Shown in pieces: positions 7,005 to 14,778 of a stretch of DNA of 44,780 nt. Below the pieces are notes generated by a model, which was not told the DNA's origin, ran no database searches, and was given only the letters and a program-made list of their open reading frames with translations. Numbering within the stretch: the stretch's first letter is position 1; each line of letters opens with the position of its first letter. Both the position numbers and the translations under genes were made by a program. Origin of the DNA: Deltaproteobacteria bacterium (GTDB lineage Bacteria > Desulfobacterota > Syntrophia > Syntrophales > UBA2210); NCBI GenBank assembly GCA_019313385.1, contig JAFDBG010000004.1:1-44780 (forward strand), in the 5' to 3' direction.

Positions 7005-8078
7005 ATGGTAAGATATTCCGATGTTATAAAAAAAGGCAACACAAGAAGGGGATCCGGCGAAAAAGGCCTGATGGATCACGAAAAGACTAACTATTCTAAA
7101 CGTTTCAGCACCTTAAAAGAATCCGGCATACCTTCTGATTTAAACCCCATGCCCGCGCAAAAAGACACTGAAGACGTAAAAAAACTTCACTCAGCCATCG
7201 TGGATTATCTTGTAGAAGTTCAGGGTCGTGTAAAAAATGATGATCAGTTTGACATCATTCAGGCAATTGATATCATAAACCACATCATAAACACGCCCGG
7301 CTTGATCGAAAGATTCTATCAGTCAACAGCCCTATCTGACGATAGCGGCAACAAAGAAAACTACCTGATTCTGCATCTGATCAACGCCCTGATTTATGCC
7401 ATCAAGCTTGGAGCAGGTCTGAATTATTCCAGGGATGAACTTCTCGAGCTTGGTCTGGCCGCAATCTTCTATGACATAGGATTCTTCAAGATGCCGGAAA
7501 GCGTAATAGAAAAAAAAGGGAAGCTTACAACGGCTGAGATAAACACTATAAGAAGCCATACTGAAATCGGGAGAAACATCCTGTCTCAGTTTCAGACCGA
7601 ACATCCAATGCTGGCTCGTGTCGCCCTTGAACATCACGAAAGAGAGAACGGCAGTGGTTATCCCAAAGGGTTAAAAAAGGACGAAATATGCGAATATGCA
7701 AAAATAACAGGCCTGGCTGATACCTTTGATGCCATGATTCGCAACCGCCCCTACAGAAAAGCCCTCGCTCAGCATTTTTCAGTTAAAGAACTTGTTACAT
7801 CAAAGAATTCCATGTTTTCTTCAAGGGTTATCAAGGTTTTTCTCGAGGAAATAGGTATTTTCCCTGTCGGAAGCTATGTCCGGCTCAATAATATGGAAAT
7901 AGCCAGAGTAGTTGGAAACAGTAAGATCCACCCGCTGAAACCAACCGTTAAACTAGTCATTAACGGCAAGGGGGAAGATGTGCGCGGAGAAACCATAATC
8001 ACCCTTGAAAAACATCCTCTTTTATATGTCACGGCGGCCGTTGACAGGGAAGACCTTCCTTCGGAACAGGTTGTTTAG
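7005..8078 (+). CDS. HD-GYP domain protein with degenerate HD motif
   Basis: This 357-residue cytoplasmic protein carries an HD-GYP domain at about residues 125-290. The family normally hydrolyses cyclic di-GMP using a binuclear metal centre. Here the first signature reads AAIFYDIGFFKMP instead of the usual HDIGK form, so Tyr156 replaces the first metal-ligand His and Phe160 replaces the Lys. The later signatures survive: RSHTEIG, HHERENGSGYP and ADTFDAMIRNRPYRKA. The protein may therefore be an inactive c-di-GMP-binding effector or a weakened enzyme. The C-terminal 90 residues look like the beta-rich tail found in related HD-GYP proteins. It is divergent from the exopolysaccharide operon, consistent with c-di-GMP control of polymer production. 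The start codon is uncertain because no good ribosome-binding site precedes 7005; an ATG at about 7071 is an alternative. Confidence 0.82.
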   Translation: MVRYSDVIKKGNTRRGSGEKGLMDHEKTNYSKRFSTLKESGIPSDLNPMPAQKDTEDVKKLHSAIVDYLVEVQGRVKNDDQFDIIQAIDIINHIINTPGLIERFYQSTALSDDSGNKENYLILHLINALIYAIKLGAGLNYSRDELLELGLAAIFYDIGFFKMPESVIEKKGKLTTAEINTIRSHTEIGRNILSQFQTEHPMLARVALEHHERENGSGYPKGLKKDEICEYAKITGLADTFDAMIRNRPYRKALAQHFSVKELVTSKNSMFSSRVIKVFLEEIGIFPVGSYVRLNNMEIARVVGNSKIHPLKPTVKLVINGKGEDVRGETIITLEKHPLLYVTAAVDREDLPSEQVV

Positions 8079-8225: not shown

Positions 8226-9344
8226 TTAGGGGTTTTTTGCCATGTTAATGAGTTGACAAACTCTCTTCAGATAAAGCTCCCAGACTTTGAGGTCCCGAGA
8301 AGACACAAAATTCTGTTTCAATATTTCCGGCCTTGGAAATAATGTTTCAAAGATGGAGTAAATCCGCACCCATAATCCCCTGTCGGGGGAAAAGAGAAAA
8401 AGGGCGGCCCATATGGGCAGGGATCCCTTTTTTAGTCTTTCTTTCAGCAGTCTCCTTTCCATAAAGTTGAGTCTTTCCAACTTCAATGCCCGGCTGACTT
8501 CCGGTGGGAAGAAAAAATCAAACAGATGGCGGATCAGGAAAAAGATATATGAAACAGATTTTTCCTGGCCCATATATCGGACTCGATTAATGAGCGCTTC
8601 CCAGTCAGACTTCTTCCAGTCGGCGAGCAGGCCTTTGATATCCACCAGCCAGATCATTCTTTCCGCATTGTGTTTTAGTGCATGAAGGCTCAAGATTATA
8701 ACCTGATCATATTTGTTTAAAGACAGGACGTCCTCGCCCTCAAAGTCCATACTCCGGGCATTCGTATAGAAATGACTCTGTCCCCGGGCAAGAATAAACT
8801 TTCGCGCCCCAATGCGTTCAGCCCCTAAAATGTGGGAGTGAAGATCGATGGTGGTGCGCCTCCTTCGGAAAGTACCCGGATAAGCAGGATCGCTCTGGTA
8901 GCCCAAGGCAGTCAGTGTCTGGATAATTTCCCTGTGATCCCTGCCGGGTATCCAGAGATCGATGTCGGTCAATTGCCTCAAACCGATATCGTGATAGACC
9001 TGTTTCAAAAGAATTATCCCCTTCAGCGGGATAACCTTTATCTTTTTTTGATTGAGCTGATGGAGAATTTCTTTGAAATCATGGAGCAGCTTGAGGTTAA
9101 AAACAACATTTCCGTGGTAGAGATTTCGAAGCGTTTCTACCTGCCGCTTATCGAGGATATCCAGCAGATTTGATTTAGTGAGACTTTTATAGAGAAAGCC
9201 GGCCAGTCCTCCGTCAAAGGCCGTACCGATCAAATGGTCCACATCCATGCACCGGAGCATAAGACGCTGCAATTTTTGCTGTTGATACGAGTCAGGATAT
9301 AACTCGGCTGAGCAGGCCAGTATTTTTTGTTCAAGAGAAGTCAT
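8226..9344 (-). CDS. Nucleotidyltransferase family protein (NTP_transf_5-like)
   Basis: The 372-residue product matches the uncharacterised nucleotidyltransferase family often found beside PqqD-like and HPr-kinase-like proteins. A helical N-terminal half leads to KVIPLKGIILLKQVYHDIGL and then RQLTDIDLWIPG, whose DxD pair is the expected metal-binding site of the polymerase-beta fold. A downstream DLHSHI motif fits the third acidic strand. The gene is the last of the minus-strand operon, separated from the peptidase gene by a 207-bp gap that holds an interspersed repeat. In lasso peptide clusters a kinase and a nucleotidyltransferase can act one after the other on the peptide. A similar role here with ScmC is a hypothesis. 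Family assignment is good; the substrate is unknown. Confidence 0.75.
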   Translation of the reverse strand: MTSLEQKILACSAELYPDSYQQQKLQRLMLRCMDVDHLIGTAFDGGLAGFLYKSLTKSNLLDILDKRQVETLRNLYHGNVVFNLKLLHDFKEILHQLNQKKIKVIPLKGIILLKQVYHDIGLRQLTDIDLWIPGRDHREIIQTLTALGYQSDPAYPGTFRRRRTTIDLHSHILGAERIGARKFILARGQSHFYTNARSMDFEGEDVLSLNKYDQVIILSLHALKHNAERMIWLVDIKGLLADWKKSDWEALINRVRYMGQEKSVSYIFFLIRHLFDFFFPPEVSRALKLERLNFMERRLLKERLKKGSLPIWAALFLFSPDRGLWVRIYSIFETLFPRPEILKQNFVSSRDLKVWELYLKRVCQLINMAKNP

Positions 9345-9393: not shown

Positions 9394-9586
9394 GTAACTA
9401 CTCAGGTAGATAGGCTGTAGGCTGAAGGCTGTTAGGCTGTTAGGGAGATTCGAGAATACCGCAAATTTTGAAGCCACGTTTGGCACAAGAATCTACTGTT
9501 TCTCTGCCAAAGCGCCGCAATTGCGCTCTTCCGGCCACTTCAGCCTTCAGACTAAACAGCTTCAGCCTGACTACGTGAGTAGTCAC
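9394..9586. repeat. Interspersed inverted-repeat element, copy 1
   Basis: The left end (GTAACTACTCAGGTAG, then TAGGCTGTAGGCTGAAGGC) is an imperfect inverted repeat of the right end (TTCAGCCTGACTACGTGAG, then TAGTCAC). A related element lies at 17143-17293 with the same right-end core GACTACGTGAGTAGT. No coding capacity is seen. The structure is MITE- or REP-like. Its right end overlaps the last dozen codons and stop of the upstream peptidase gene. Confidence 0.7.
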
Positions 9587-10205
9587 CACTGATACATGCA
9601 TCTGGTTGAGGGAGAGATCCCTCATCCACAAAGAGGCGGAAAGGCCGCCGGATAAACCACTCGTTTTTGCCCGGCAGGAGGCGCCCGATCACATGTCCTG
9701 CCATGAGAAGCTGAAACTCCACTCCGTCGGAACGGCTGAAAGAAAGAACCCGCATACGCATTCCATCCGGCAACCATCGCCTGAACAGTCCGGTTTCAGC
9801 CAAACGATGATAGACAGGATTCAGAAAGGAAGATATCACCGAATCGATGTTGCAGAAAAATCTGACTGCGGACGCATATAACAGGCCCCTTGTTCCACCA
9901 TATATTGCCAGAAGCCGATTTCCCCTTCGCGCTCGGGCTACACGCCCGACAATACGATCAGGGCTTAGTGACCAGGGATCGGCATCGTTATTGTTGTCGC
10001 CGCGTGTCATTACCCCATGGTCGGAGGTGGAAACAACCCTGTGAACAACCATGTCGTTGCTGCCCGGTGGAAAAAATACGATGACATCTCCACGTCGAAT
10101 CTGATCACCTTCGCCCGGCGATACATGCATTATGTCAGACGCCTTTAAAACAGGGTGCATGCTTGAACCGGTGTAAACCATTTTTTGGGGGGCATATCCG
10201 CTCAT
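9552..10205 (-). CDS. S24/S26-type (signal peptidase I-like) peptidase
   Basis: The 217-residue protein contains the catalytic-serine box GSSMHP (Ser15), followed by RRGDVIVFFPPG, VVHRVVS and TRGDNNNDADP. These are the conserved boxes of the SipW/archaeal-type signal peptidases, where His replaces the catalytic Lys. Unlike usual signal peptidases there is no clear N-terminal membrane anchor, since the Ser box starts at residue 13. It may be soluble or attached through another segment. The gene begins one base before the end of scmC in the radical-SAM operon, so it is a plausible leader peptidase for the cassette's peptide. Its last twelve or so codons and stop lie inside an interspersed repeat, so the natural C-terminus may have been replaced. 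Confidence 0.75.
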   Translation of the reverse strand: MSGYAPQKMVYTGSSMHPVLKASDIMHVSPGEGDQIRRGDVIVFFPPGSNDMVVHRVVSTSDHGVMTRGDNNNDADPWSLSPDRIVGRVARARRGNRLLAIYGGTRGLLYASAVRFFCNIDSVISSFLNPVYHRLAETGLFRRWLPDGMRMRVLSFSRSDGVEFQLLMAGHVIGRLLPGKNEWFIRRPFRLFVDEGSLPQPDACISGDYSRSQAEAV

Positions 10206-10206
10206 G

Positions 10207-11133
10207 TCAGAGAACCTTTTCTATCTCGTCCCAGAAATAACCGTTAAGGCTGTTTCGGAGAATATGAGCAGGAACAGTCCTGGCCATATCACTCGCGTTA
10301 TCAAAAATTTTCTTCTTTATATCTGTCTTTTCTTTCATATCCATGTGCCACCAGACTGGATTAATCGCCTCCGCGCATGAATCATTAATACGCACAGCCG
10401 CCTGTCCCTGGCCTATGGGAACAACTCTATCGGAAGTGGCCTGTTCTATAAAAAAAATCGCGGCAAGGGGAACATAATGTTGGATATTCCAGTTCTGTTC
10501 CGATCCATGCCAGAGGTGATCGCTCCAAGTGGGGACAGGGTGAGCCAGGTATCTGTTTTGATCATCCGGCACGACAAGGGACTGATCATCACTCAAGACA
10601 TGCCAGGCAGGAGGAAGACGGCGAGACAGGGTGGATTTCCCCGCGCCTCCCGGACCGGCAAGCAACACTCCGCTCCCGTTTCGCTCTATGAGAGCCCCAT
10701 GCAGAATAAGCCCCCCGGAATCGAACGATCTTAAGTATATGCCGTAAAGGGCAGTCCACATTTTTACAATGTCAACCCTGTGACTGCGGGCAGGCTCTAT
10801 TTCACAGACAATATCCGGTGTCCCCTTATGCGTCCAGAGCCTGAGCGCCCCGAAATCCACGCCATTCCATCCGTCAGTTGGAAGATCCGTCTTTATCTTC
10901 GAGAATATGAGGGGATTTGGCTCATTACATTCGTCTTTCTTCCAACGCCCCGGGACAAAGAACATCCTGGTACTGCTGCGGCTCATATCCCGATCGTCAG
11001 GATTCAGTCCGATAATCGTGGCGAATTTTTGTACCCATGACCTTGTCTTCGGCGTGGCCATAAAGGACCAGCAGATGCCATTGCCCAGTTTCAGAAGGAA
11101 TTGTGTGTCGGATGTTTCATCTTTCAAACTCAA
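10207..11133 (-). CDS. scmC: HPr-kinase-like protein of the SynChlorMet cassette (ScmC)
   Basis: The protein has a P-loop (LLAGPGGAGKSTLSRRL) followed by an SDDQSLVV segment, as in the C-terminal domain of HPr kinase/phosphorylase. Such HprK relatives are common beside PqqD-like proteins, and some phosphorylate lasso peptides. Position between a radical SAM pair and an S26 peptidase fits the SynChlorMet family ScmC, a name assigned from memory of the family. The start is uncertain. An ATG at 11226 would make 339 residues, but its first 26 codons overlap the precursor peptide gene in another frame and read as low-complexity Gly/Pro/Gln sequence. TTG codons at 11133 or 11127, just after an AAGG, are preferred here. 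Confidence 0.7.
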   Translation of the reverse strand: MSLKDETSDTQFLLKLGNGICWSFMATPKTRSWVQKFATIIGLNPDDRDMSRSSTRMFFVPGRWKKDECNEPNPLIFSKIKTDLPTDGWNGVDFGALRLWTHKGTPDIVCEIEPARSHRVDIVKMWTALYGIYLRSFDSGGLILHGALIERNGSGVLLAGPGGAGKSTLSRRLPPAWHVLSDDQSLVVPDDQNRYLAHPVPTWSDHLWHGSEQNWNIQHYVPLAAIFFIEQATSDRVVPIGQGQAAVRINDSCAEAINPVWWHMDMKEKTDIKKKIFDNASDMARTVPAHILRNSLNGYFWDEIEKVL

Positions 11134-11146
11134 ATTGACCTTGTTT

Positions 11147-11377
11147 TTATTTTGCCAGACTTCCAAGGCTGCAACCCCTTGAGGCAGATGCCCCTGCCCG
11201 GCATTTCCCTGCGGCGGATGACCCATTCTTGCAATTTCCTGGAACAGGTCCTCCTCCTCCTACACCCGATCCGAGGCTGCATTTCTTAGCGGCGGAAGCT
11301 CCCGATTTACAGTTTGTAGCCCCCTCGGCCCTGTCTCCCAAGGCGAAATCTATCAGGACAGGTTTCTCATAATTCAT
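11147..11377 (-). CDS. Candidate Cys-repeat RiPP precursor peptide
   Basis: A 76-residue peptide starts at an ATG preceded by AAAGGAGGAAATGTC, an excellent ribosome-binding site, and overlaps the scmF stop codon (ATGA), which implies translational coupling. The first 20 or so residues (MNYEKPVLIDFALGD onward) are Cys-free and look like a leader. The remainder has five Cys at positions 23, 33, 49, 59 and 69, spaced 10, 16, 10 and 10. Each starts a CxxG motif (CKSG, CSLG, CKNG, CRAG, CSLG), and the intervening residues follow an A/S-S-A-A/S pattern. The two modules are joined by a VGGGGPVPG linker and both end in CSLGS. The repeats differ at many synonymous sites, so the peptide pattern appears selected. 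It sits between the radical SAM genes and scmC, where a substrate is expected. No homologue is known to me. Confidence 0.85.
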   Translation of the reverse strand: MNYEKPVLIDFALGDRAEGATNCKSGASAAKKCSLGSGVGGGGPVPGNCKNGSSAAGKCRAGASASRGCSLGSLAK

Positions 11378-12480
11378 GACATTTCCTCCTTTTTTAAACG
11401 TGTCTCCGAAAAAAGCCCCTTGCTGTTTGCCTCGTGGCAGTACCAGAAGGGCGCCCAGAGGTTTTTGTTCAGATAGTAATTCTGGGCAATACAGTTTCCC
11501 CGACAGATGCTCTTTAAAAGACATTTTCCGCAGATGCCCTCGAGACGATCGGGGAGACCCTCGCGAAGCTCCCGGAGTACGGGGGAATTGTTCCAGACAT
11601 CGTCGAGGCGATCAATATCCGCATGCCCGAAGACAAGCTCGGGCACCGTCTTACCGATACCACACAGAGAATATGAACCATCGGCAAGGACACCAAGAAT
11701 GCCGAGAATGCCGCATGTATCGCATCCTGTGCCGCTGTTTCCAAACATCTTACTCAGGGGACGGAAGGCAGGCGGATGATCAAAGATGAGCGGCAGGTTT
11801 GTGGAAGCGGAGAGGGTATTTTCAACCCACCGCCCGAGCTCTATAAGCTCCTCTATTTCCAGAGTTTCCCCTGCCTCGTGCATCTGTTCTCCTCTTGCCA
11901 CGGGTTGCAAGACATTAAATTTGACTGAGCCTGCCCCCATTGATTCCGCCAGGCGCACAACCGCCTCGATCTCGTCTCTGTTGCAACGCGCCACCGTCAT
12001 GATGAGCTGCGGTTCAATGCCGGCATTTACGAGATTACTGATTCCATCGACAGTTTTTTCGAAACATCCGGAAACGCCTCGCACCCACTCGTGAATTTTC
12101 GCATCCGCGGCATCGAGGCTCACCGCCACAAAAGGGTCCTCACACGACGCCATTATTCGAGCAAGTTCACCTGTGCACAAAAGACCGTTGGTCTCTACAA
12201 CCAGTCTGAGGCCGCCGGTACGAATCTCCTCCAGGATTTCACGAATTTGCGGATGGAGCAAAGGCTCGCCGCCGGTCAGTTTGACTGCTGACAACCCCAG
12301 TGGTCTGGCCTGCTCTACTATGGATTTGAAAAGGTTCAGAGAAAGGCTGGGATAAGTATGAGTGTCGTCCTCGTATTTCGGGGCAAGCCAGCAATGACGG
12401 CAGCGAAGATTGCACCCCTCCGTCAGGTAAAAGTAGATCTGATTCAGGGAAAATTTTCGTTCTTCTTTTATGGCTGTCAT
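11374..12480 (-). CDS. scmF: Radical SAM/SPASM peptide maturase (ScmF)
   Basis: From an ATG at 12480, which follows the scmE stop by one base, the protein is 368 residues long. It has the radical SAM cluster motif GCNLRCRHCW (Cys 23, 27 and 30), the GGEPLLHP motif and a typical TIM-barrel core. A C-terminal SPASM region has CDTCG, SLCGIG and a CGKCLLKSICRGNC cluster, ending with WYCHE, which would hold auxiliary iron-sulfur clusters. PqqE-like enzymes of this class install carbon-carbon or thioether links in ribosomal peptides. A longer start at 12552 would add only a translated heptamer repeat and is not preferred. The stop codon overlaps the start of the Cys-repeat peptide. The name follows the SynChlorMet cassette, from memory. 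Confidence 0.85.
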   Translation of the reverse strand: MTAIKEERKFSLNQIYFYLTEGCNLRCRHCWLAPKYEDDTHTYPSLSLNLFKSIVEQARPLGLSAVKLTGGEPLLHPQIREILEEIRTGGLRLVVETNGLLCTGELARIMASCEDPFVAVSLDAADAKIHEWVRGVSGCFEKTVDGISNLVNAGIEPQLIMTVARCNRDEIEAVVRLAESMGAGSVKFNVLQPVARGEQMHEAGETLEIEELIELGRWVENTLSASTNLPLIFDHPPAFRPLSKMFGNSGTGCDTCGILGILGVLADGSYSLCGIGKTVPELVFGHADIDRLDDVWNNSPVLRELREGLPDRLEGICGKCLLKSICRGNCIAQNYYLNKNLWAPFWYCHEANSKGLFSETRLKKEEMS

Positions 12481-12481
12481 T

Positions 12482-13651
12482 TTATTCACTGTCCACTGTC
12501 CACTGTCCACTGTCCACTGTCCACTGTCCACTGTCCACTGTCCACTGTTCACTACTGTTACAGGGAAGTTTTCCGCCCTCTTTTAAAAAATCCCTCAGGC
12601 ACGCGTCAGGACTTGGGTGATTTACCTGACCTGTAATCGTATAGGCCAGCGCGGGACAATTACCGGTGCAATAAGGGATATAATCGCAACCCCTGCAGAA
12701 GTCGAAATCACTGAGGGGAATAGTATATCGATTCCTCAGCCGTTTCAGTTCAGGATGGTGTTGCCATATCTCTTTGAGATCACTTTTGCCCACGCGCCCC
12801 AACTCTATATGGCTTAACTGGGCGCACGGAACTATTGCGCCGTCTGCGCGGACCGCAAGACTGCTCGTATGGCAGCCGCATCCGGTAAGATATCCTCCCC
12901 CGGGAAGGTTCTCTTTACCTTCACAACGGGCCTGTTCCATCATCATCCAGTTTATCGCTTCAGCCAGAGGACCTGCCGTAGCGCCAATTCGCCCATTGTA
13001 CTCCCTGTTCAGAGCCAAGAGACTTTCCATGGCAAGGGTTCGTTCGGGAACGCTAAGTTGAACCTCTTCGGCATTTTCCCGGCAGAGTCCCATAAAAGAA
13101 ACCGCGTTGGTTGTGAATTCAGTAAAATCGAAGTCTTCCAGTAAAAACCGGGTTATTTCCTCAAGCTTATGTACGTTCTCTTTATGAATGGTAACTCTTA
13201 CAGACACCGGAACACTGTGTTTCCTTAAAATTTCAATTCCCTTCACAGCCCTGGAGAAACTGCCCTTGCCCCTGAAAACATCGTGTGTCGGGGCATCAGA
13301 ACCATCAATAGAGACCTGAACACCATCACAGCGGCGAGTTGAAGCTAAGAAAATAGCCATCTCGTCTGTAATCAGTGTTCCGTTGCTCAATATATTGAAG
13401 CGCATCCGGTTTTCGACGATTCCTTCAATGAGTTCAGGCAAGTCCCTGCGGTAAAAAGGCTCCCCACCCTGAAGGCAGACCGTCATAATCCCGCAGCGAT
13501 TCAGCTCCTGAAAGAAATCCAGCCATTCTTCTGTGGGCAGGTCCCGGCTGACATCCCCCTCGCTGCTGAAATGAGAGCAGTATTTGCACCGCAGATTGCA
13601 ACCATTTGTAATATCTAAATCCAAAGACCTCGGAGTGCTCATTATCCTCAT
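12482..13651 (-). CDS. scmE: Radical SAM/SPASM peptide maturase (ScmE)
   Basis: The 389-residue protein has the motif GCNLRCKYCS (Cys 18, 22 and 25), LQGGEPFYRRDL and a VSIDGSDA segment typical of radical SAM barrels. The C-terminal SPASM part carries TGCGCHTSSLAVRADG, PCAQLSH, and FCRGCDYIPYCTGNCPALA for auxiliary clusters, then a late Cys in PDACLRDFLKEGG. It belongs to the PqqE-like peptide-modifying enzymes and pairs with the PqqD-like protein encoded 6 bp upstream. After CNSS the last residues (EQWTVDSGQW and so on) are encoded by the heptamer array and look like an acquired tail. Stop TAA lies one base before the scmF ATG, so the two enzymes are made in a coupled way. Confidence 0.85.
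   Translation of the reverse strand: MRIMSTPRSLDLDITNGCNLRCKYCSHFSSEGDVSRDLPTEEWLDFFQELNRCGIMTVCLQGGEPFYRRDLPELIEGIVENRMRFNILSNGTLITDEMAIFLASTRRCDGVQVSIDGSDAPTHDVFRGKGSFSRAVKGIEILRKHSVPVSVRVTIHKENVHKLEEITRFLLEDFDFTEFTTNAVSFMGLCRENAEEVQLSVPERTLAMESLLALNREYNGRIGATAGPLAEAINWMMMEQARCEGKENLPGGGYLTGCGCHTSSLAVRADGAIVPCAQLSHIELGRVGKSDLKEIWQHHPELKRLRNRYTIPLSDFDFCRGCDYIPYCTGNCPALAYTITGQVNHPSPDACLRDFLKEGGKLPCNSSEQWTVDSGQWTVDSGQWTVDSE
12487..12549. repeat. Heptanucleotide tandem array at the scmE/scmF junction
   Basis: Eight perfect copies of CACTGTC and a ninth ending in T (CACTGTT) lie head to tail. Because 7 is not a multiple of 3, the array encodes the same cyclic heptapeptide (WTVDSGQ) in all three minus-strand frames and contains no stop. 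It forms the last 20 or so codons of scmE. The flank (ACTGTTCACTACTGTTACAG) resembles the end of the interspersed repeat at 41401, so the array may have grown from such an element. Arrays of this kind change length by slippage. Confidence 0.95.
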
Positions 13652-13657
13652 AAGATA

Positions 13658-13975
13658 TTATCCCCCGGCAACTTCGAAACCGGCCAGGCCCCGTTCTGTC
13701 AGCTCCTGAATTAATTCCTTGAGATCATTTCCCGCTTCTTCGGGCACATTCTCACACTCTCCATGCAGCTTTTTCAGTATGTCATTCAATGTGTGAGAGC
13801 CGTCAAGAAGTTTCCATATAAAAACACCCGTTGGATTAAGACCCATACCTTTGCCGGTGTCAGGGTCAAAGAGTATTGCCCAGTCATCGAACTCCTCGCG
13901 AAGCACGATTAAGGGATTGGCCACCGGCCTGGTTTTCTCTGTTATTATCATATGTTTCCCCGTTGCCTCCTTCAT
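13658..13975 (-). CDS. scmD: PqqD-like RiPP recognition element (ScmD)
   Basis: The 105-residue protein matches the PqqD fold. A strand region VLREEFDDWAILFDPDTGKG leads to the family signature LNPTGVFIWKLLDGSHTLND, followed by helices with ELIQELTERGL. PqqD-type proteins bind the leader of a precursor peptide and present it to the radical SAM partner. The gene stands immediately before scmE with a 6-bp gap and 5 bp after the ATPase gene. The length and motif order are normal for a stand-alone recognition element. Its presence argues strongly for a ribosomal peptide substrate in this operon. Confidence 0.85.
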   Translation of the reverse strand: MKEATGKHMIITEKTRPVANPLIVLREEFDDWAILFDPDTGKGMGLNPTGVFIWKLLDGSHTLNDILKKLHGECENVPEEAGNDLKELIQELTERGLAGFEVAGG

Positions 13976-13980
13976 ACAAT

Positions 13981-14778
13981 CTAATCAACATCCAGTACAG
14001 CCTGTTTGACAACCTCAGGATCAACAACCTTTGCCTTTAAAGCAAATCCTGTCATAAGGCTCGTGTCGCAAACGTTATTTATCACCCTGGGTATTCCACC
14101 CGTGTAAGAGTATATCTCATTCATAGCCTGCGGGTTAATTATACTGCCATCTGAACCGGCCTTTTTGAGGCGGGCATCTACATATTTTATTGTTTCATCA
14201 AGACTCAAAGAATTCAAATGATATTTTACGGCAATCCTCTGATTCAGTTGTTTAATATTCTTAACGATATCCCTCAGCTCCGGCTGACCAAGCAGGATAA
14301 TGGTCAGCATGAACATGTCATTCAGCTGGAAATTCAGCAACAACCGTATTTCTTCAAAGGTTGCAGTGGAAATCAGATGTGCTTCGTCAAATATCAGCAG
14401 TGTCATCTTGTCATTTCGGAGGTTCTCCAGTACTCTTTCATTCAATAATTTCAAGAGGGAAGACTTTGGCAAATCCATATCCGGATCCAAACCAAGACTG
14501 TGGAGAATTTCTCTTAAGAAATCTACAGGCTCAAGAGTCGGATTGGTCATTAATCCTATATCAAACTTTTCATCAGGAAGCTGCTGTATCAGCACCCTGG
14601 TCAGCATCGTTTTCCCACTGCCAATCTCCCCGGTAATCAAGACTATACCCTTGTTCCGTTCTATCGCGTACAGGAGCCGGGACAGCGCCTCTTCGTGCTC
14701 GGGAGAATAATACATAAAGGCCGGATCTGGAACATTTTCAAAAGGGAATTTCTTAAGACCCCAGTATTCTAAATACAT
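13981..14778 (-). CDS. ExeA-like AAA ATPase (PEP-CTERM-associated type)
   Basis: This 265-residue protein starts MYLEYWGLKKFPFENVPDPA, the classic start of ExeA/GspA-type ATPases. Walker A is GEIGSGKTML (about residues 50-59), Walker B is LLIFDEAHL, and a sensor region follows with LGQPELR and NQRIAVKYHL. Very similar stand-alone ATPases accompany exosortase/exopolysaccharide loci. Unlike ExeA itself it lacks the long C-terminal peptidoglycan-binding part, so it should be cytoplasmic. It overlaps the phosphatase gene by 10 bp and lies 5 bp before scmD. Its role is unknown; association with polysaccharide secretion is inferred from related loci. Confidence 0.8.
   Translation of the reverse strand: MYLEYWGLKKFPFENVPDPAFMYYSPEHEEALSRLLYAIERNKGIVLITGEIGSGKTMLTRVLIQQLPDEKFDIGLMTNPTLEPVDFLREILHSLGLDPDMDLPKSSLLKLLNERVLENLRNDKMTLLIFDEAHLISTATFEEIRLLLNFQLNDMFMLTIILLGQPELRDIVKNIKQLNQRIAVKYHLNSLSLDETIKYVDARLKKAGSDGSIINPQAMNEIYSYTGGIPRVINNVCDTSLMTGFALKAKVVDPEVVKQAVLDVD

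Follow-up and report, generated by a model that had tools for sequence, protein, structure and literature searches.

Which peptide the SynChlorMet (scm) cassette acts on is the question raised by this locus, where a short open reading frame lies between scmF and scmC. In the window, by which we mean the whole stretch of 44,780 nucleotides analysed, the initial annotation had read this frame as a likely unrecognised precursor of the cassette. Its minus-strand translation is MNYEKPVLIDFALGDRAEGATNCKSGASAAKKCSLGSGVGGGGPVPGNCKNGSSAAGKCRAGASASRGCSLGSLAK (76 residues, followed by a stop), and the plus-strand reading of the same interval was rejected because it contains stops and yields no sensible protein. 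As annotated, the gene has a good ribosome-binding site, and its start overlaps the scmF stop in ATGA (Table 1). All five Cys residues (23, 33, 49, 59 and 69) stand in CxxG; the 10-residue period first described for them holds inside the modules but not over the linker, where the spacing is 16 (33 to 49). Both modules end in CSLGS around VGGGGPVPG, and the synonymous differences noted between them were confirmed, with CTC/CTT and TCG/AGT codons in the two CSLGS copies and a pS of 0.79 against a pN of 0.23 between C23-S34 of module 1 and C49-R60 of module 2. The closest relative of the gene lies in locus L039, whose ScmE is 80% identical to that of the window; the two precursor genes differ with dN 0.27 and dS 0.63 (ratio 0.43), all five CxxG are kept, and on this comparison the gene is under purifying selection. 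Promoter and terminator scans gave matches at shuffle level, and a profile search of the same genome for more ScmA copies returned none beyond the window copy.

Table 1. Positions of the scm genes and of the parts of the ScmA-like precursor in the window
Feature	Position	Strand	Basis
NTP_transf_5 nucleotidyltransferase, predicted tailoring enzyme	8226..9344	minus	PF14907, E 2e-43
TM-less S26 signal-peptidase-like protein (Ser15/His55), a predicted leader peptidase	9552..10205	minus	TIGR02228, 58.3 bits (cut-off 51.85)
scmC, HprK/PEPCK-fold kinase-like	10207..11133	minus	TIGR04249, 280.6 bits; presumed TTG start at 11133, ORF open to 11226
scmA-like precursor gene	11147..11377	minus	76 aa + stop; translation, TIGR04252 match, homologues beside scm genes
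Core module 2, residues 49-73, CKNG...CRAG...CSLGS	11159..11233	minus	Translation
Linker GVGGGGPVPGN, residues 38-48	11234..11266	minus	Translation
Core module 1, residues 23-37, CKSG...CSLGS	11267..11311	minus	Translation, CxxG statistics
AEG, residues 17-19, predicted leader-core junction	11321..11329	minus	xG-type junctions accompany S26 peptidase across loci
YEKPVL (YxxPxL leader motif), residues 3-8	11354..11371	minus	Kept in homologues; same motif as lasso-peptide leaders
scmF, radical SAM/SPASM	11374..12480	minus	TIGR04251, 601 bits; presumed ATG start at 12480, longest ORF from 12552
Shine-Dalgarno AGGAGG of scmA	11385..11390	minus	Sequence; 7 nt before ATG
scmE, radical SAM/SPASM	12482..13651	minus	TIGR04250, 622 bits; best PDB match SkfB
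scmD, PqqD-type peptide-recognition protein	13658..13975	minus	TIGR04248, 125 bits; PF05402, E 4e-17
XrtA/PEP-CTERM-associated ATPase, flanking EPS locus	13981..14778	minus	TIGR03015, 235 bits, below cut-off

We compared the peptide with NCBIfam by hmmscan and obtained a single match, TIGR04252 (SCM_precur_ScmA; E 5.1e-5, 23.4 bits, residues 3-55), which lies below the 35-bit cut-off of that model; no Pfam family matched the peptide. The homologue of NaphS2 (L036), with a WEKP leader and a CxxG core, scored 69 bits, which ties the precursor set to the TIGR04252 model, and the window peptide shares leader and CxxG core with this over-cut-off member. ScmC, ScmD, ScmE and ScmF are adjacent to the scmA-like gene, and all four score over their NCBIfam cut-offs. 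The window copy has the cassette place and CxxG core of the TIGR04252 ScmA but a two-module build with the VGGGGPVPG linker, and it is ScmA-like by homology and position, outside formal TIGR04252 membership. The description of the precursor as unrecognised therefore stands in part: the family is named in NCBIfam, yet the window copy is below cut-off and three quarters of the relatives have no match at E ≤ 1e-3 (13 of 52 match). The accompanying statement that the precursor of the ScmC/D/E/F cassette had not been identified is outdated, given the existence of TIGR04252. At E ≤ 1, TIGR04252 alone matched in 7 of 14 unrelated control genomes, which makes it unusable as a genome scanner at such thresholds. 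Our literature search found no paper on the SynChlorMet cassette, its product or a substrate test, and nothing relevant on ScmE, on TIGR04250 to TIGR04252, on CxxG with PqqD, or on HPr kinase with radical SAM and PqqD. New in this work are how broad the set of precursors is, the presence of lasso-type tailoring proteins, the link to an S26 leader peptidase and the pairing of kinase and precursor.

Loci containing scmE were collected from named genomes and from two overlapping sets, 149 relatives and 395 genomes of the phylum; all ORFs were read in a stretch of up to about 20 kb around each scmE. The results revealed 62 precursor candidates in 48 of 58 scm loci (numbered with the prefix L), the window included, and the hosts of the homologous peptides include named Desulfobacterales, NaphS2, BMS3Abin06 and a methanogen. 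A leader-plus-core pattern run on 7,396 ORFs gave 56 matches, all within 2.5 kb of scm genes, to which six further precursors were added by eye. A non-circular selection by CxxG content alone, over 877 kb of scm loci, retrieved 49 ORFs; 45 of them lie no more than 2.4 kb from scmE/scmF, and four lie farther away, at up to 7.6 kb. [YW]xxP stood upstream of the core in 48 of these 49 compared with 12% of background ORFs, and YExP in 38 of 49 compared with 2%. Precursor-less loci numbered 10 of 58, seven of these on short or cut contigs; no precursor was seen in L065, L068 and L097 (about 19-20 kb each), the last of which is also without ScmF. The initial annotation had made its reading depend on homologous short Cys-rich ORFs near other scmE/scmF pairs, and such ORFs, sharing a Y-x-x-P-x-L leader and CxxG cores, were found. 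Together with the cut-off scores of the cassette proteins, they indicate that the frame is almost certainly the ScmA-type precursor of the SynChlorMet cassette.

Across the 62 peptides the number of Cys residues ranges from 2 to 17, from forms with two CxxG units (L094, L096) to forms with 12 (L054, L059), and Cys-Cys spacing peaks at 10-11 residues. Gly occupies position +3 of 401 of 503 core Cys (about 81%), compared with a mean of 90 and a maximum of 118 in 1,000 shuffles. Ala stands at +6 of 45% of Cys (3.6-fold), and Ser/Thr are enriched at +2, +4 and +5. Many of the Cys without Gly at +3 (19%) belong to an f5-family clade with extra Cys (L045-L050), within which L045 and L047-L050 have 14-17 Cys per precursor, many outside CxxG. 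Between scmE and scmF, L048 and L050 encode a 580-aa probable membrane protein with a weak GT87 match in L048; this gap gene had been considered as a third radical SAM enzyme of the extra-Cys clade and was rejected, its matches being weak and below cut-off. Separately, a short ORF close by in an acidobacterial scm locus (L037, 2712-2942) encodes two CADGNGN/CVDGNGN units and a leader of another kind (MTNLEEIKKEELSEIKAG...).

The leader motif and several cassette proteins have counterparts in lasso-peptide systems. YxxPxL has been reported for lasso-peptide leaders (PMC10368454), and lasso kinases, which are HPr-kinase homologues, phosphorylate a precursor Ser with a PqqD-type B1 partner and a YxxPxL leader (PMC10368454, PMC8498205). 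In related lasso clusters the phosphate receives a hexose from a nucleotidyltransferase, which in some cases forms one protein with the leader peptidase (PMC8498205); an S26-NTP_transf_5 fusion occurs in scm locus L093. Set beside the phosphorylated or phosphoglycosylated lasso peptides paeninodin, BsfA and pseudomycoidin, with their YxxPxL leader, PqqD-type B1, HPr-kinase homologue and nucleotidyltransferase, the window offers comparable parts in YEKPVL, ScmD, ScmC and the NTP_transf_5 protein, and by analogy the tailoring set of scm resembles the phosphorylated lasso set. In contrast, a scan of the cassette genes and near neighbours detected neither an asparagine-synthetase-like cyclase (C) nor a transglutaminase-like B2 protease domain; two radical SAM/SPASM enzymes and an S26 peptidase take the place of cyclase and B2, and the core is a CxxG repeat. 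The NTP_transf_5 proteins of L052 (3399-5369) and L053 (14300-16270) are extended at the N terminus by about 290 residues, for which Pfam gives no match.

ScmC matched HprK in the PDB (E 4e-4), and its AF2 model (pLDDT 79) matched the PEPCK fold (E 1e-7). An alignment of 26 ScmC sequences showed H140 ahead of the P-loop, Walker A GK(S/T)T and D177 to be invariant and D178 nearly so, in agreement with the His, GxxGxGK(S/T) and DD motifs of HprK/PEPCK kinases. The order in L050 is ScmA-ScmC-ScmA-ScmC-ScmA-ScmC and then S26, with one ScmD/E/F set; L049 has two ScmA and two ScmC, and in L041 (1-12273) a single ScmD/E/F set is accompanied by 3-4 ScmC hits and six or more distinct CxxG precursors. 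This co-duplication around one radical SAM pair shows ScmC to track the precursor and not the radical SAM pair, and 24 of 59 precursors in ScmC-containing loci lie directly upstream of ScmC. Because of this pairing, the HprK/PEPCK likeness and the lasso precedent, we lean towards ScmC phosphorylating ScmA. Two loci of the AxAQ junction type described below, L053 (11430-12350) and L074 (10869-11768), encode a ScmC-like protein that is divergent and matches PEPCK_ATP weakly; loci of this type often contain two to three PqqD-like proteins.

The S26-like protein of the window has a maximum 19-residue hydropathy of 1.11 and thus departs from the membrane-anchored build of its family; from the absent TM helix it is read as a probable soluble protease. 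The GxSMxP and HR motifs that carry its catalytic pair (S15, H55) are kept in 17 sequences. Fusion proteins link S26 to either end of ScmC (L063, L064, L104; L070, L101-L103) and, in L062, to ScmF. Before the first Cys, the precursors show two main junction types, AxG/xG-like and A(H/Y/F)A(Q/A/D), and a few (that of L036, for example) belong to neither. Every one of the 27 non-AxAQ loci with enough context has S26, a count that leaves aside four non-AxAQ loci without S26 on contigs of 3.3-5.6 kb, whereas S26 is missing from 16 of 17 AxAQ loci; one L093 precursor labelled xG by the script reads AYAQ and was counted as AxAQ. A single cleavage site common to all precursors was rejected, since AxAQ-type loci have no S26 gene. 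The correlation between S26 and junction is partly phylogenetic: on the ScmE tree there are four changes of junction label, so that the most economical reading is of types that do not form one clade, although they are clustered and one origin is compatible with the well-supported branches. Given the association of S26 with xG junctions across loci, the S26-like protein is quite probably the leader protease of ScmA, with predicted cleavage after Gly19.

The scm operon of the window lies inside an exopolysaccharide locus, with a Wzb-like phosphatase and an XrtA-type ATPase on one side and Wza/SLBB, Wzz-Wzc and Wzy_C on the other; across the set, an XrtA ATPase or LMWPc lies near scm in 17 loci each. 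A search for scmE in six genomes of the same genus gave no match, so the cassette is patchy in distribution and may be horizontally acquired. A protein with an HD-GYP-type domain, a possible c-di-GMP phosphodiesterase, is encoded beside scm in the window (7005-8078), in L053 (12347-13588) and in L074 (11769-12803). A 7-bp tandem repeat, CAGTGGA (9.6 copies, 12487-12553, unique in the genome), covers the final part of scmE and continues into the upstream part of scmF; slippage in it would shift the frame of the ScmE tail and the coupling to scmF, making it a possible phase-variation site.

For the chemistry of the core, we considered ScmE, which matches Pfam Radical_SAM and SPASM and has the sactisynthase SkfB (6efn, E 3e-20) as its best PDB match, as expected of a sactisynthase-related SPASM maturase. 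The StsB sactimaturase was among the best non-self models matched, and the PapB ranthipeptide maturase and WgkB models were matched as well; the AF2 model of ScmE is poor (pLDDT 59), and the comparison was thus made by sequence and not by fold. In streptosactin (GggA/GggB; StsB-type maturase), a SPASM radical SAM enzyme closes small unnested thioether rings of four residues each through the bonds Cys31-Gly34, which spans Cys-x-x-Gly, and Cys25-Ser28 (PMC8172795). That system is streptococcal and has one enzyme and two rings, whereas scm has two enzymes, 2-17 Cys and PqqD-type, kinase-like and S26 proteins. In thuricin CD, two radical SAM sactisynthases (TrnC/TrnD) act in one complex, as proposed here for ScmE and ScmF; unlike scm, it has two precursors, and no kinase or PqqD-type gene is described in the available part of that report (PMC12093266). 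As Gly has no side chain, a thioether to Gly at +3 is possible only at the alpha-carbon. Because of streptosactin Cys31-Gly34, the SkfB likeness of ScmE and the thuricin CD enzyme pair, Cys-Gly(+3) thioether rings are our best guess for the bond, and we regard this guess as evenly balanced between right and wrong.

Alternatively, ScmA may be the precursor but carry another modification. This could be a ranthipeptide-like side-chain thioether, for instance to Ala at +6 or to Ser/Thr at +4/+5, or one of the two enzymes could alter the peptide without crosslinking it, for example by epimerisation. The enriched Ala and Ser/Thr positions (+2 included) and the PapB and WgkB matches of ScmE would suit this, but no residue is nearly as constant as the side-chain-less Gly at +3, and among solved structures ScmE is closest to a sactisynthase, so that we see a different bond as a substantial minority possibility. 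A more distant alternative makes the peptide a metal-binding or disulfide-rich structural or regulatory component of the exopolysaccharide locus, with the radical SAM enzymes acting elsewhere. The place of the cassette between Wzb-like/XrtA ATPase and Wza/Wzc/Wzy genes, its XrtA or LMWPc neighbours elsewhere and the variable Cys number fit such a role; the YxxPxL leader, the PqqD-type protein, the fusions and the exclusive scmE/scmF linkage are precursor-like, no other conserved candidate substrate was seen, and this explanation appears improbable. As for the frame being a chance opening in the scmF-scmC spacer, its shortness and sub-cut-off TIGR04252 score are what could be expected, but the ribosome-binding site, the ATGA coupling, the dN/dS against L039 with every CxxG kept and the homologues in 48 loci already contradict it, and it can practically be dismissed.

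Returning to ScmA as a precursor with Cys-Gly rings, we infer every chemical step of the following scheme. ScmD would hold the YxxPxL leader of ScmA, and ScmE and ScmF, probably paired, would oxidise each C-x-x-G unit, most likely by bonding the sulfur of Cys to the Gly(+3) alpha-carbon. The product of this step would contain up to five small unnested 4-residue thioether rings, each lowering the mass by 2 Da (up to -10 Da in all). ScmC, paired with its own precursor, would then phosphorylate core Ser/Thr; the NTP_transf_5 protein may decorate the phosphate, and by the lasso analogy transfer of a sugar by it is conceivable though doubtful. Finally, the TM-less Ser/His S26 peptidase would cut after the AxG junction. 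Leader binding by ScmD, an unspecified Cys-centred crosslink by ScmE/ScmF and S26 cleavage are, taken jointly, probable. More tentative is the wider proposal that scm represents a RiPP class uniting a lasso tailoring set, a pair of radical SAM enzymes and a soluble leader protease of the signal-peptidase type, its product being a string of Cys-Gly rings with phosphate or phospho-sugar that is possibly polymer-linked.

With 62 precursors of defined leader, junction and repeating core, the SynChlorMet cassette becomes directly testable, and the two-CxxG and 12-unit forms are ready comparison substrates. The questions that can be put to it are what kind of bond the pair of radical SAM enzymes forms on C-x-x-G, whether a radical-SAM peptide undergoes HprK-type phosphorylation, and whether a TM-less relative of signal peptidases serves as a RiPP leader protease. 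If the wider proposal is true, the product would string together as many as roughly a dozen small Cys-Gly thioether rings with phosphate or phospho-sugar attached; its genes would often lie in an XrtA-type exopolysaccharide locus, and the peptide might act on that polymer or be joined to it.
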